From positions 6,324,001 to 6,388,000 of the forward strand of contig NZ_MWQN01000001.1 of the NCBI RefSeq assembly GCF_002024165.1: a DNA stretch of 64,000 nucleotides, in the 5' to 3' direction. Shown here in pieces: positions 32,356 through 47,506 of the stretch (its first letter is position 1; the number at the start of each line of letters is the position of its first letter). The notes below the pieces were generated by a model. That model had not been told where the DNA came from. It ran no database searches and saw only the letters and a program-made list of their open reading frames with translations. Origin of the DNA: Embleya scabrispora. GTDB lineage: Bacteria; Actinomycetota; Actinomycetes; Streptomycetales; Streptomycetaceae. The position numbers and the translations under genes were made by a program.

Positions 32356-32385
32356 TGCACACCCGTCGGGACGACCCGATACGGT
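32356..32385 (+). promoter_or_regulatory. Candidate promoter for the hairpin-array transcript
   Basis: TGCACA (32356-32361) and TACGGT (32380-32385) are spaced by 18 bp; the -10 fits TANNNT and the -35 matches four of six consensus positions. Transcription would begin about 30 bases before the first hairpin unit. Confidence 0.35.
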
Positions 32386-32420
32386 CTACATACCGGCACC
32401 GCTTCGGCGGGATCGGTAAC

Positions 32421-32590
32421 CTGCTCCCCGCATCTGCGGGGATGGCCCTGATTACAGGGGCGCCAGGCACTGCTCCCCATGCATATGGGGATGGCCCGGA
32501 TTCGATGGGCAAGCTGCATTGCTCCCCGAGCACTCGGGGATGACCCTGATTGCAGGGGTGCCCGACCTTGTTCCCCGCGCATGCGGGGAT
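32421..32590 (+). repeat. Four tandem 49-bp units with conserved hairpins
   Basis: Units start at 32421, 32470, 32519 and 32568 (the last is partial). The hairpins are CCCCGC-ATCT-GCGGGG, CCCCAT-GCAT-ATGGGG, CCCCGA-GCAC-TCGGGG and CCCCGC-GCAT-GCGGGG, each flanked by T-(G)-YTC on the left and GGGGATG on the right. The 20 bases between hairpins are also related (each begins GATT; units 1 and 3 contain CCCTG-ATTR-CAGGG). Because the intervals resemble one another they are not CRISPR spacers. Confidence 0.9.
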
Positions 32591-32593
32591 GCG

Positions 32594-32625
32594 AAGCCCC
32601 ACCGCCTCACGGTGGTGAGGCTTTT
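32594..32625 (+). terminator. Intrinsic terminator after the hairpin array
   Basis: AAGCC-CCACCG (32594-32604) pairs with CGGTGG (32610-32615) and, after a three-base bulge, GGCTT (32619-32623) around a CCTCA loop, followed by TT then GTG. It immediately follows the fourth unit. Confidence 0.7.
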
Positions 32626-32737
32626 GTGCTGTCCACACCCGGCCCGGTTGTCCACAGGCCGGCCGCCGCCCACCCGCCCGGGTCCCGCCTCCCGCCACGC
32701 TCTCCCCACGGGCCGCCCGGCCCACGGAGGAGGCGTC

Positions 32738-32935
32738 GTGTGGGATCTGGTGTGCGCGCTGGTCGGCGCGGCGGGCTCGGTGGCGGCGGCCTGGGTGGCT
32801 ACTCGCCCTCGGCCTGTCGTGTCTGGTGGTCGGCGAGCGGTGTGCTGTCGTGGGTGTCGTGCATCCGTGCGACGCTACCCGCCGGTCCGACACTGCCCGG
32901 GTCGGTGCGGCCTTCAGCGAATGCTGTACTCGTAG
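32738..32935 (+). CDS. Possible small membrane protein
   Basis: A 65-codon frame with a very good ribosome site (GGAGGAGGCGTC) before GTG 32738. The first 25 residues are hydrophobic (WDLVCALVGAAGSVAAAWVA), like short one-helix phage membrane proteins, and the rest is Arg/Cys-rich. It overlaps the 3' end of the opposing gene at 32914, so it is uncertain. Confidence 0.4.
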   Translation: MWDLVCALVGAAGSVAAAWVATRPRPVVSGGRRAVCCRGCRASVRRYPPVRHCPGRCGLQRMLYS

Positions 32936-38025: not shown

Positions 38026-38041
38026 CACGAGAGGTTGGATT

Positions 38042-38575
38042 GTGAAGATCGAGCACCTGATCGGCCGAAACGTGCGTCGCATCCGCGAGGCGCGCGGTCT
38101 CTCCCAGGCCGACCTCGGACGCGCCGTGGAGGACCAACTGGGCCACGCCTGGAGTCGCCAGGCCGTGTCGGCGGCCGAGAAGGGCCGCCGATCGTTCGCC
38201 GCGTCCGACCTCCTCGCGCTGTCGCGCGTGTTGGAATCGACGATCCCGGACCTGCTTCTGCCGGTGGAACGGTGGGCGGAGTCCGCGATCGAACTCGGGG
38301 ACGGCGTACACGTCGCGGTCGCGGAGTATCGCGACCGCGTCCTGCGCCACGGCGACGAGCGGGGGGCCTCCCGGGCCGTGACCCGGGCCGACGTCCGGGA
38401 ACTCGCGACCACCGTGGTCCGCCTCAAGCAGCAACTGGACGCGGTGCACGCCACCGCCGCGGGCCTGGAGGCCGATGTCTCGGCCGCCGTCGGGACCGCG
38501 GACCCCGTCTCGGATCCACGCGCGCACGACCACGCCGACCGCCTCGAGGGCGGGGCGGGCGGCTCGGACATCTGA
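38042..38575 (+). CDS. XRE-family immunity repressor
   Basis: A 177-residue protein. The N-terminal helix-turn-helix spans residues 5-70 (RNVRRIREARGLSQADLGRA; WSRQAVSAAEKGRRSFAASD; LLALSRVLESTIPDLLLP). The C-terminal half is a charged helix (ATTVVRLKQQLDAVHATAAG) that could dimerise. It lies immediately upstream of the integrase, 20 bases apart, so both may share a transcript in the lysogen. GTG 38042 follows GAGAGGTTG. Confidence 0.8.
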   Translation: MKIEHLIGRNVRRIREARGLSQADLGRAVEDQLGHAWSRQAVSAAEKGRRSFAASDLLALSRVLESTIPDLLLPVERWAESAIELGDGVHVAVAEYRDRVLRHGDERGASRAVTRADVRELATTVVRLKQQLDAVHATAAGLEADVSAAVGTADPVSDPRAHDHADRLEGGAGGSDI

Positions 38576-38595
38576 GCGTTCGGGACTGGAGTGCA

Positions 38596-39825
38596 GTGGC
38601 GGCAGCGGATCCGACCATCAAGAAGATCAAACTGAAGAACGGCAAGGTGCGATACCGGTTCGTCATCGACATCGGCAAGAAGAAAGAGGACGGCAAGCGC
38701 AATCAGCTCACCGTCACGCGGGATACGCTCACGGAGGCGAAGAACGAGCGGGCCCGCATCATCCACGAGCAGGCACGGGGCACGTTCGTCGCGCCCAACA
38801 AGATGACCGTGGACGAACTCCTCGACGCGTGGCTGGAATCCGCGACCCGCGGCCTGGAGGAGGGGACCCGCTCGAACTACACGAGCGCGGTTCTGCCCGT
38901 GCGGACCCGCCTCGGTCACAAGCAGATCCAGCAGCTGACGGAGTCGGACGTCGAGAAGTTCGTCGACTGGATGATCTCCAGCGGACGGCGGCGCGGGGGC
39001 AAGCCGGGTACCGGGCTGAGCGTGCGCGCGGTCGAGCTGACCCTCGGACGGCTGAGGTCGGCCCTGACGTTCGCGAGGCGCCGCTTCTGGGTCGTGTCCA
39101 ACGTCGCCCAGTACGTGGTTATCACGCGCGAGGCCCGGCAGCAGGCCGCGGCGCTCACGCGCGACGACCCGCCGTGGGACGAGACGGAGGTGCGGACGTT
39201 CATCGGGGCCATCGAGCATCGCCGGTTGTACGGCGCCATGATGTTGACGCTGATCGCCGAACGGCCCGCCGAGGTGTGCGGGGTCCGGTGGGAGCACGTC
39301 GACCTGGCGGCCGGGACCGTCAAGGTCGCCAGGACCCGGACCATCGTCTACGACCGCGCCCTCGCGAGGGGCGAGCGGAACAAGGTCGTGGAGAAGGAAC
39401 CGAAGTCCCGGGCCGGGTCCCGGACGTTGCCGTTGCCGTCGCCCGTCGTCCAGGGTCTGAAGACGTTCCGCGCGATCCAGGCCCGGGAGAAGCTGGCCGC
39501 CGGCGAGGCGTACAACGCGAGCGGTTACGTCCTGGTCGACGAACTCGGCAACCCGATGAAGACGGACATGCTCCGCCGCAGGGCGTACAGGTTCATGGAA
39601 CTGGCCGGCGTGCGTCGGGTGCGGTTGTACCTCGCCCGTCACGCGATCCTGTCCTGGATGGCGAACAACGGCGTCCCGGACACGGTGGTCTCGGCCTGGG
39701 CCGGCCACACGGACCTGGGCTTCACGAAGCGGACCTACGTGCACCCGGATCCGCAGAGCCTGAAGGCGGGATCCGACAAACTCACCGAACTGCTGAGCCT
39801 GGAGAGGCCCGAAACCGGGATGTGA
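38596..39825 (+). CDS. int: Tyrosine integrase
   Basis: A 409-residue site-specific recombinase. An N-terminal arm-type DNA-binding part (residues 8-60) is followed by a SAM-like core-binding domain (70-165) and the catalytic domain with Arg223 (ERPAEV), Arg348 in YLARHAI (the first His of the usual HxxR is Tyr, common in actinobacterial integrases), His371 in AGHTD and nucleophile Tyr381 in KRTYVHP. GGAG precedes GTG 38596. The gene points at tRNA-Pro, whose 3' end is the presumed attachment site. Confidence 0.93.
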   Translation: MAAADPTIKKIKLKNGKVRYRFVIDIGKKKEDGKRNQLTVTRDTLTEAKNERARIIHEQARGTFVAPNKMTVDELLDAWLESATRGLEEGTRSNYTSAVLPVRTRLGHKQIQQLTESDVEKFVDWMISSGRRRGGKPGTGLSVRAVELTLGRLRSALTFARRRFWVVSNVAQYVVITREARQQAAALTRDDPPWDETEVRTFIGAIEHRRLYGAMMLTLIAERPAEVCGVRWEHVDLAAGTVKVARTRTIVYDRALARGERNKVVEKEPKSRAGSRTLPLPSPVVQGLKTFRAIQAREKLAAGEAYNASGYVLVDELGNPMKTDMLRRRAYRFMELAGVRRVRLYLARHAILSWMANNGVPDTVVSAWAGHTDLGFTKRTYVHPDPQSLKAGSDKLTELLSLERPETGM

Positions 39826-39856
39826 GAAATTGTGAGACGAAACAGGCCCACCAACC

Positions 39857-39898
39857 GGTCAGGGCCCTGCCTCACCGAAGTGAAACAGGGCTCTGACC
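39857..39898 (+). terminator. Integrase terminator
   Basis: GGTCAGGGCCCTG (39857-39869) pairs with CAGGGCTCTGACC (39886-39898), 13 positions with one G-T, 31 bases after the integrase stop. It separates the prophage message from the convergent tRNA-Pro gene. Confidence 0.65.
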
Positions 39899-39922
39899 TG
39901 CGCGTGACCGCGTCAAACACCG

Positions 39923-39996
<74 letters not shown>

Positions 39997-47355: not shown

Positions 47356-47426
47356 AGATGGAGGCGGGATTCGAACCCGCGTACACGGTTTTGCGGACCG
47401 CTGCCTTGCCTCTCGGCCACTCCATC
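47356..47426 (-). tRNA. tRNA-Cys(GCA), variant copy with C33
   Basis: 71 bases: acceptor GATGGAG/CTCCATC, D stem GCC/GGC, anticodon stem GCGGT/ACCGT, loop CCGCAAA (anticodon GCA), T-arm GCGGG-TTCGAAT-CCCGC, discriminator T as expected for cysteine. The base before the anticodon is C instead of the nearly universal U33. All stems pair, so it may be expressed, but decoding could be impaired. Confidence 0.85.
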
Positions 47427-47435
47427 GGGACTACG

Positions 47436-47506
47436 AGGTGGAGACGGGATTCGAACCCGCGTGAACGGCTTTGCAGGCCGCTGCCTAACCTCTCGGCCAC
47501 TCCACC
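47436..47506 (-). tRNA. tRNA-Cys(GCA)
   Basis: 71 bases with acceptor GGTGGAG/CTCCACC, anticodon stem GCGGC/GCCGT, loop CTGCAAA (anticodon GCA, normal T33), T-arm GCGGG-TTCGAAT-CCCGT and discriminator T. No encoded CCA. It lies nine bases upstream of the variant copy and is probably cotranscribed with it. Confidence 0.95.

Follow-up and report, generated by a model that had tools for sequence, protein, structure and literature searches.

Structure of the Array and Its Prophage Context

The window, by which we mean the whole analysed stretch of 64,000 nt of the Embleya scabrispora genome, contains an array of four hairpin units spaced at exactly 49 nt (Table 1). Units 1 to 3 follow the layout of type I-E CRISPR repeats, in which 5 nt, a 16-nt hairpin and an 8-nt handle make up 29 nt, and three 20-nt intervals remain between the repeats. 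The inner stem pairs at positions 5 and 6 read GC/GC, AT/AT, GA/TC and GC/GC in units 1 to 4, respectively. The spacing, the type I-E-like geometry, the compensatory stem changes and the mutual resemblance of the intervals, all claimed in a preliminary description of this DNA, were borne out. The promoter-like sequence and the intrinsic terminator that it had placed before and after the array were also found, and the array is likely transcribed; a strict sigma-70 scan returned no promoter before it. The RNA fold of positions 32415–32640, terminator included, had a z-score of −4.31, with equal stability in 0 of 200 shuffles, and in the best fold unit 1 pairs with unit 4. According to a DNA search, the array is single-copy in the 10.96-Mb genome. 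Across the array, none of five ORFs had a PHROG match at E ≤ 0.1 and none of the three tested ORFs had a Pfam match.

Table 1. Positions of the array elements and of neighbouring features in the window.
Feature	Position	Strand	Description
Promoter-like sequence	32356..32385	+	TGCACA (32356–32361), 18 nt, TACGGT (32380–32385); direct sequence
Repeat 1	32421..32449	+	29 nt, type I-E layout, 8-nt handle ATGGCCCT
Guide S1	32450..32469	+	GATTACAGGGGCGCCAGGCA, 20 nt
Repeat 2	32470..32498	+	stem CCCCAT/ATGGGG, handle ATGGCCCG
Guide S2	32499..32518	+	GATTCGATGGGCAAGCTGCA, 20 nt
Repeat 3	32519..32547	+	stem CCCCGA/TCGGGG, handle ATGACCCT
Guide S3	32548..32567	+	GATTGCAGGGGTGCCCGACC, 20 nt
Repeat 4, terminal	32568..32591	+	stem kept, handle lost (ATGCGAAG)
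Intrinsic terminator	32594..32625	+	directly after the array
Small ORF	32738..32935		directly after the terminator; membrane-like N-terminus (VWDLVCALVGAAGSVAAAWVATRPRP), weak PHROG match only (E 0.063)
Integrase gene with adjoining tRNA gene	38035..39996		possible prophage attachment site
tRNA gene	39923..39996	−	adjoins the integrase gene
Two further tRNA genes	47356..47506		

The array lies in a prophage, in agreement with its earlier designation as phage-encoded. The surrounding genes encode TerL (just below the Pfam cut-off), an SPP1-type portal with 39% identity to mycobacteriophage portals, a tape measure and an HTH regulator; the integrase gene adjoins a tRNA gene.

Related Arrays in Viral Contigs

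Two pattern scans of viral contigs yielded 100 loci. With no requirement for inner stem pairing, 59 of these loci contain 149 units placed 47–51 nt from another unit, and 148 of the 149 have two complementary inner pairs, which upholds the earlier proposal that stem pairing is selected. Among them, a few, for example L013, look unrelated to type I-E repeats, and one (L021) is the window's own record. The inner-pair forms found among viral units were GC, AT, GU and TA.

In the second scan, where spacings of 38–60 nt were allowed, 76 of 136 matches were spaced 49 or 50 nt and 12 were spaced 43 or 44 nt. A separate tally, from which arrays with less than 60% distinct repeats were left out, had its other peak at 61/62 nt. 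With a 29-nt repeat, spacings of 49/50, 43/44 and 61/62 nt correspond to guides of 20/21, 14/15 and 32/33 nt. In Cascade, the step is 6 nt of crRNA per Cas7. The Cas7 subunit count is described as following crRNA length (PMC6828817).

The handle is kept inside arrays and rarely at their ends: CC occurs at handle positions 6–7 in all 36 second units that have a further hairpin after them, compared with 9 of 46 terminal units. Each unit is thus best understood as crRNA-like, with handle, 20-nt guide and stem. A terminator-like structure comes after 40 of the 54 arrays compared and after 31 of 270 random control windows, and −10-like hexamers precede 17 of 55 arrays versus 12 of 275 control windows.

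Several arrays deviate from the common form. Conserved and unusually short guides of 14/15 nt (GCTTGnTACTynnA) are present in L014, L019, L165 and L175; no target was found for the 14-nt or the 32-nt guides. Other repeat and handle types, with stems CTCCGC....GCGGAG and often the handle GTGGATCG, occur in L014, L023, L165, L175, L178 and L183, possibly serving another Cas6e type. The guides of L030, L213 and L015 are mutual variants within or between arrays, such as AGTAATCGGACCATTGATTCA and AGCAATCTGACTAATGATTCA in Pectobacterium, and no convincing target was found for them. L203 consists of near-identical units with one repeated guide, unlike the diversified arrays. The Streptomyces-like genome G272 (L308, L306) holds both a type I-E cas locus and a phage-type array, whose units are spaced 49 and 61 nt.

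The window array had no relative among 50,697 phage records (INPHARED). When sibling arrays were compared with the same database, L016 gave no match and L204 and L022 one weak match each. Short matches were obtained in nine Streptomyces plasmid records; the two inspected (H8 and H1) were both long arrays at 61-nt spacing.

A Host creT-Like Gene with Its Own CreA-Like Guide

The Streptomyces olivochromogenes genome G654 carries, at locus L377 near cas3, cas7e and cas6e, a 49-nt unit whose guide is GATTCCAGGGGCGTACCGTC. A 72-aa membrane ORF adjoining cas3 has its ribosome-binding site and its start in the AAC-flanked site GATTCAAGGGGAGTCCGATG, about 330 nt upstream of this unit. A search for this ORF in 297 family genomes returned 23 with a match at E ≤ 0.01, including four strong ones at E ≤ 2e-15 (G637, G194, G643 and G617). 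In each of these four, a CreA-like unit is located roughly 250–300 nt after the ORF start, and upstream of the ORF lies an AAC-flanked site that the guide of this unit matches. Counting G654, the membrane ORF is accompanied by its own CreA-like guide downstream in five of five strong host loci. The guide and site of G617 differ within the first 18 positions only at 6, 12 and 18.

The host units are degenerate: pairing of the first repeat is imperfect in G637, and G194 and G643 each have a shortened first repeat and a 32-nt guide. Adjacency to cas genes was looked at in G654 and G194, and in G194 the ORF lies ~300 bp from cas8e. CRISPR repeats were found near the ORF loci of G637 and G617. The 3-kb loci of four weaker homologues (E 3e-6 to 4e-5) contained no CreA-like unit.

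Judged by sequence, the 72-aa ORF with its downstream guide is a CreTA arrangement. The label "toxin" rests on this arrangement, since the ORF has no Pfam match. We infer the name creT-like, because a small membrane protein is conserved here, whereas the described CreT toxins are tRNA-sequestering RNAs (PMC8501985, PMC9458426).

Window Guides Compared with creT-Like Sites

Type I-E Cascade flips every sixth base and leaves the sixth bases unpaired. Guides and sites were compared over positions 1–14, ignoring 6 and 12. The sites of G637, G194, G643 and G617 had been obtained via the ORF and that of G654 via the host's own guide, none of them via the window. Guide S2 has one non-sixth mismatch over 14 nt to the G637 site, and S1 and S3 have two each to the G654 site; in all three comparisons, 0 of 500 shuffles were as good. 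The metagenomic phage guides L016.2 and L020.1 match the G654 site with no non-sixth mismatch. Overall, 11 of 90 tested guides reach p ≤ 0.01 against creT-like sites, two of them (L015 and L030, from phages of unrelated hosts) probably by chance. When 96 guides were compared with seven sites, 20 reached p ≤ 0.02 and 76 were left without a site.

All three window guides start with GATT, and their fifth base is A, C or G, as though to cover target alleles. S1 and S3 mismatch their nearest known site at this seed position. Their exact alleles were not found in creT-like context, and the AAC-flanked GATTGCAGGGGTG (S3) in G549 has no such context. The idea in the preliminary description that each unit may mimic the repeat of a different host gained no support; the allele-like variation that could be followed is in the guides. 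The preliminary description had also set the intervals apart from spacers; this was not supported, as the intervals are 20-nt guide segments whose mutual likeness fits variants for one target.

Two further searches of the 297 genomes led to rejected candidates. The pattern AACGATTNNAGGGGNG gave eight matches versus one in the control, and no repeat unit lay within 1.5 kb of any of them. When a host site conserved for GATTCNAGGGGNGTNC was sought, 16 genomes matched versus 9 in the reversed control, and seven of the places looked at were not such arrays. The GATTCNAGGGGNGTNC match in the lysogen's own genome lies before what we take to be a peptide-deformylase-like ORF.

The creT-like sites carry AAC, instead of the AAG described as the type I-E PAM of Streptomyces avermitilis (PMC4762764). 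An AAC PAM may permit binding without cutting.

A search of the lysogen genome (10.96 Mb) for Cas6e and Cas8e detected neither, and the creT-like ORF had no match in four genomes of the lysogen's genus. Both the partner and the target therefore seem absent in the lysogen, and the benefit of the array would lie in other hosts.

Guides Directed at cas Genes in Other Arrays

The Pectobacterium polonicum contig L147, identical with viral contig L015, carries five units. Its phage guide AGTATTTCGGAAGTGCTCCA matches the cas3–cas8e intergenic region of the same genome, where the host has its own two-repeat unit with 49-nt spacing and the guide AGTATCTCGGAAGTGCTTCA. The phage and host guides are identical at 18 of 20 positions and differ at 6 and 18. 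The AAG-flanked site AGTATTTCGGATGTG lies less than 100 nt upstream of the host unit. From sequence, the host guide resembles a CreR and the phage guide a copy of that CreR. Two of the three remaining guides of this array matched the 20-kb cas locus no better than shuffles; the third, P2, gave a match reached by 0 of 100 shuffles, at a place of no evident meaning.

The guide GATGC-x-CAnGA-x-G is shared by L012, L016, L019, L020 and L165 (family B). Searching AANGATGCNCATGANGACA in the 297 genomes gave three matches, all with AAC, and none in the reversed control; the cas-locus findings cover one of the three genomes, G588. Its match falls in the cas8e 5′UTR, with a TACGGT box on one side and the ribosome-binding site on the other. 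Cas5e of this locus scores above its curated cut-off and Cas8e, Cas7 and Cas6e below theirs, so the system is regarded as a divergent type I-E. A single repeat just after cas6e carries the guide GATGCACACGAAGACATC, which mismatches the cas8e site at position 9 besides 6. Guides L016.1, L019.0 and L020.0 match the G588 cas8e 5′UTR with 0 mismatches and L012 with one; since the site was found with the family B pattern, these matches are not independent. The place of the site in the cas8e 5′UTR and the host's own guide are independent of the search pattern. L016, L019 and L020 also carry a family A guide, always after the cas guide; for the family A guide of L019, comparison with creT-like sites gave p = 0.07.

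L028 and Nocardiopsis L074 carry guides to the cas7e start. Out of 57 type I-E loci, 23 match the L028 guide and 39 the L074 guide at the orthologous position, and none of 291 shuffled guides exceeded 6. A first search of cas loci, in which the hairpins had been masked, singled out the cas7e guides alone. As masking could hide host copies of CreR or CreA, the search was repeated unmasked on a larger set. None of the window guides stood out against the 57 type I-E loci or the tested cas sites. The aim at host CRISPR-Cas that the preliminary description suggested is considered likely. Some array guides match sites in host type I-E loci.

Guide Selection and Decoy Function

Among 38 pairs of alike guides, which overlap and are not independent and were chosen by total similarity, mismatches within positions 1–14 peak at 6 and 12. 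The sixth-position count was reached by 50 of 5000 common position shuffles. These peaks are as expected of Cascade, and the guides thus seem to be selected as guides. A Fisher test was given no weight because some host pairs had been found by a search ignoring positions 6 and 12.

Pairing between guide and handle was examined in 59 distinct short units, leaving out the long guides of L181, L182, L191, L197 and L208, which stem from genuine CRISPR arrays or from units paired by chance. The pairing of guides with the 5′ handle of the same unit exceeded that obtained after the handles had been re-dealt (z = 4.7, 0 of 2000). This test mixed AT-rich and GC-rich phages, which may inflate the excess, and the guide-shuffling version gave a weak excess only. 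Such pairing was set aside as a general rule. It could account for part of the conservation of family A guides, and two 32-nt guides of L204 form 10–11 bp with the handle of the same unit.

These results bear on the reading of the preliminary description, which saw the units mainly as repeat decoys. The corresponding rival explanation would make the array a Racr-like RNA anti-CRISPR in which the hairpins occupy Cas6e or Cas7 and the intervals are mere linkers. It has precedents, as Racr RNAs are described as mimics of single repeats and two type I-E Racrs inhibited a type I-E system (PMC10651486), and the pairing of guides with their own handles could lock a unit. However, the handle persists ahead of a guide and is mostly missing from terminal units, a pattern that a combination of handle, guide and stem needs and a plain Cas6e sponge would not. 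The clustering of spacings at 49/50 and 61/62 nt, and hence of guide lengths, the matches of some guides to host guide/target pairs in type I-E loci, and the sixth-position pattern also speak against it. We therefore consider a pure decoy unlikely; a decoy role alongside the guide role is possible.

Proposed Mechanism and Alternative Explanations

The comparisons above reveal the anatomy of the array, the conservation of its pairing, spacing and handle, and a relationship between some guides and the guide/target pairs of hosts. With moderate confidence, we interpret the window array as a phage set of CreA-like antitoxin-guide mimics that holds down a creT-like gene through the type I-E Cascade of the host. 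The locus would make a short RNA of about 230 nt. In a type I-E host, Cas6e would process this RNA into three mini-crRNAs that each comprise a handle of 8 nt, a guide of 20 nt and a Cas6e stem. After loading into host Cascade, these short and partly matching guides, together with the non-standard AAC PAM, would direct binding to the 5′ region of the small membrane gene and block it without cutting. This gene adjoins the host type I-E system in a creT-like arrangement, and the CreA-like guide of the host appears placed to repress it. The three variant guides would cover target alleles. Interference of the phage with host CRISPR-Cas would then not release the alarm gene, whose product is presumed toxic, and here the phage would benefit. 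The trigger may be a disturbance of CRISPR-Cas by phage proteins, flooding of Cascade or, in relatives, CreR-like cas repression. Some related phages add CreR-like guides against the cas operon.

A wider form of this idea, a two-lock RNA anti-CRISPR in temperate phages, is tentative, and we rate it slightly short of an even chance. CreR mimics would make Cascade silence the cas operon, and CreA mimics in the same transcript would silence the gene that signals CRISPR loss. The window array would supply the antitoxin part, its three guides serving different target alleles and its repeats differing to prevent loss by recombination.

Alternatively, the array could be part of an addiction module owned by the phage and repressing a phage gene. 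A guide of G272 resembles the start of the gene directly after its own array (one non-sixth mismatch over 14 nt; over 16 nt, shuffle p = 0.13), and a small membrane ORF also follows the window array. However, no good site for the window guides exists within ~1.5 kb of the array or elsewhere in the window, and over all arrays local matches exceeded shuffles only for the host unit L109 and for L203, an array whose own copies were unmasked. Such a module is quite improbable.

Slightly lower still, we place a viral mini-CRISPR directed against competing phages, as known from archaeal viruses (PMC6858448), even though some relatives of the window array carry 32-nt guides. Guides matched the 100 viral loci about as well as single shuffles did (mean mismatch fraction 0.254 vs. 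0.265), and the clearest matches were other arrays. Furthermore, the 20-nt window guides are variants of each other, and the repeats differ from unit to unit.

GC-rich sequence folds easily, but inverted repeats arisen by chance, or a repeat acting as DNA (operator, cruciform), can practically be dismissed given the conservation of spacing and pairing across many contigs, the stability of the fold, the strand-specific handle, the promoter-like motif and the terminator.

Significance and Comparison with Known Systems

If the interpretation as antitoxin-guide mimics is true, phages counter CRISPR-guarding toxins by copying host regulatory guide RNAs, and RNA anti-CRISPRs are joined with antitoxin mimicry. 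The array strategy appears to be common to some related viruses. The interpretation would explain repeat-like phage arrays that were set aside by the search for solitary repeats, and viral guides would offer a route to CreTA and CreR modules in Streptomyces. The arrays would also provide naturally short, diversified guides for type I-E gene repression and make it testable whether CRISPR-linked alarm genes stop CRISPR-interfering phages.

CreR is reportedly treated in a paper of Liu et al. from 2023. It is described as a crRNA-like RNA that represses its own cas operon through a guide to the cas promoter and is known for type I-E (PMC12737573, PMC13131331). CreR-like host units are present in Pectobacterium and G588, whereas the phage copies are mimics. 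The window array has no CreR-like guide; a guide to its own cas promoter was not found, nor were type I-E genes in its own genome.

Racrs likewise are phage RNAs that mimic CRISPR repeats, with type I-E examples known (PMC10651486). They are, however, presented as solitary repeats in mobile elements, and the Racr search, as outlined in that source, set aside repeats associated with other repeats. The window has four repeats with guides, and constraint acts on guides as well as handles in the phage arrays studied here. Virus-borne mini-CRISPR arrays are similar in being small viral arrays that use host Cas proteins, but they are described as having host-identical repeats and spacers mostly against related viruses (PMC11656645). 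A canonical type I-E CRISPR array has near-identical repeats, spacers of 32/33 nt and cas genes in the same genome, whereas the window array has four different stems and 20-nt guides, and no Cas6e or Cas8e was found.

No phage-borne CreA or CreR mimics or short-guide type I-E phage arrays were among the literature titles and abstract starts listed, a coverage outside which subscription journals and most preprints fall.

In CrePA, a protein toxin is held down by a crRNA-like CreA with Cascade and is released when anti-CRISPRs strike (PMC12737573). The control of a protein, not an RNA, by CreA and Cascade resembles the situation proposed for the 72-aa ORF. CreP is described there as typically carrying a KilA-N domain, whereas this ORF has no Pfam match.

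A close counterpart is CreTA, in which crRNA-like CreA represses CreT via Cascade, and loss of Cascade releases CreT (PMC8501985, PMC9458426, PMC12948488). CreA is described as resembling a crRNA and having two degenerate repeats; in hosts it is located next to type I cas genes, and its guide partly matches the 5′ region of its target (PMC8501985, PMC9458426). At the sequence level, the window array also has degenerate repeats that would yield the 8-nt handle and Cas6 stem. The array differs in being phage-borne, in having several guides per transcript and in that no creT-like gene was found with it; a guide to the 5′ region of a linked toxin gene beside cas genes was not seen within the window, and the resembling sites lie in other genomes. 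As a linked target site is missing from the window, we call the array a "CreA mimic" and not a CreTA module.
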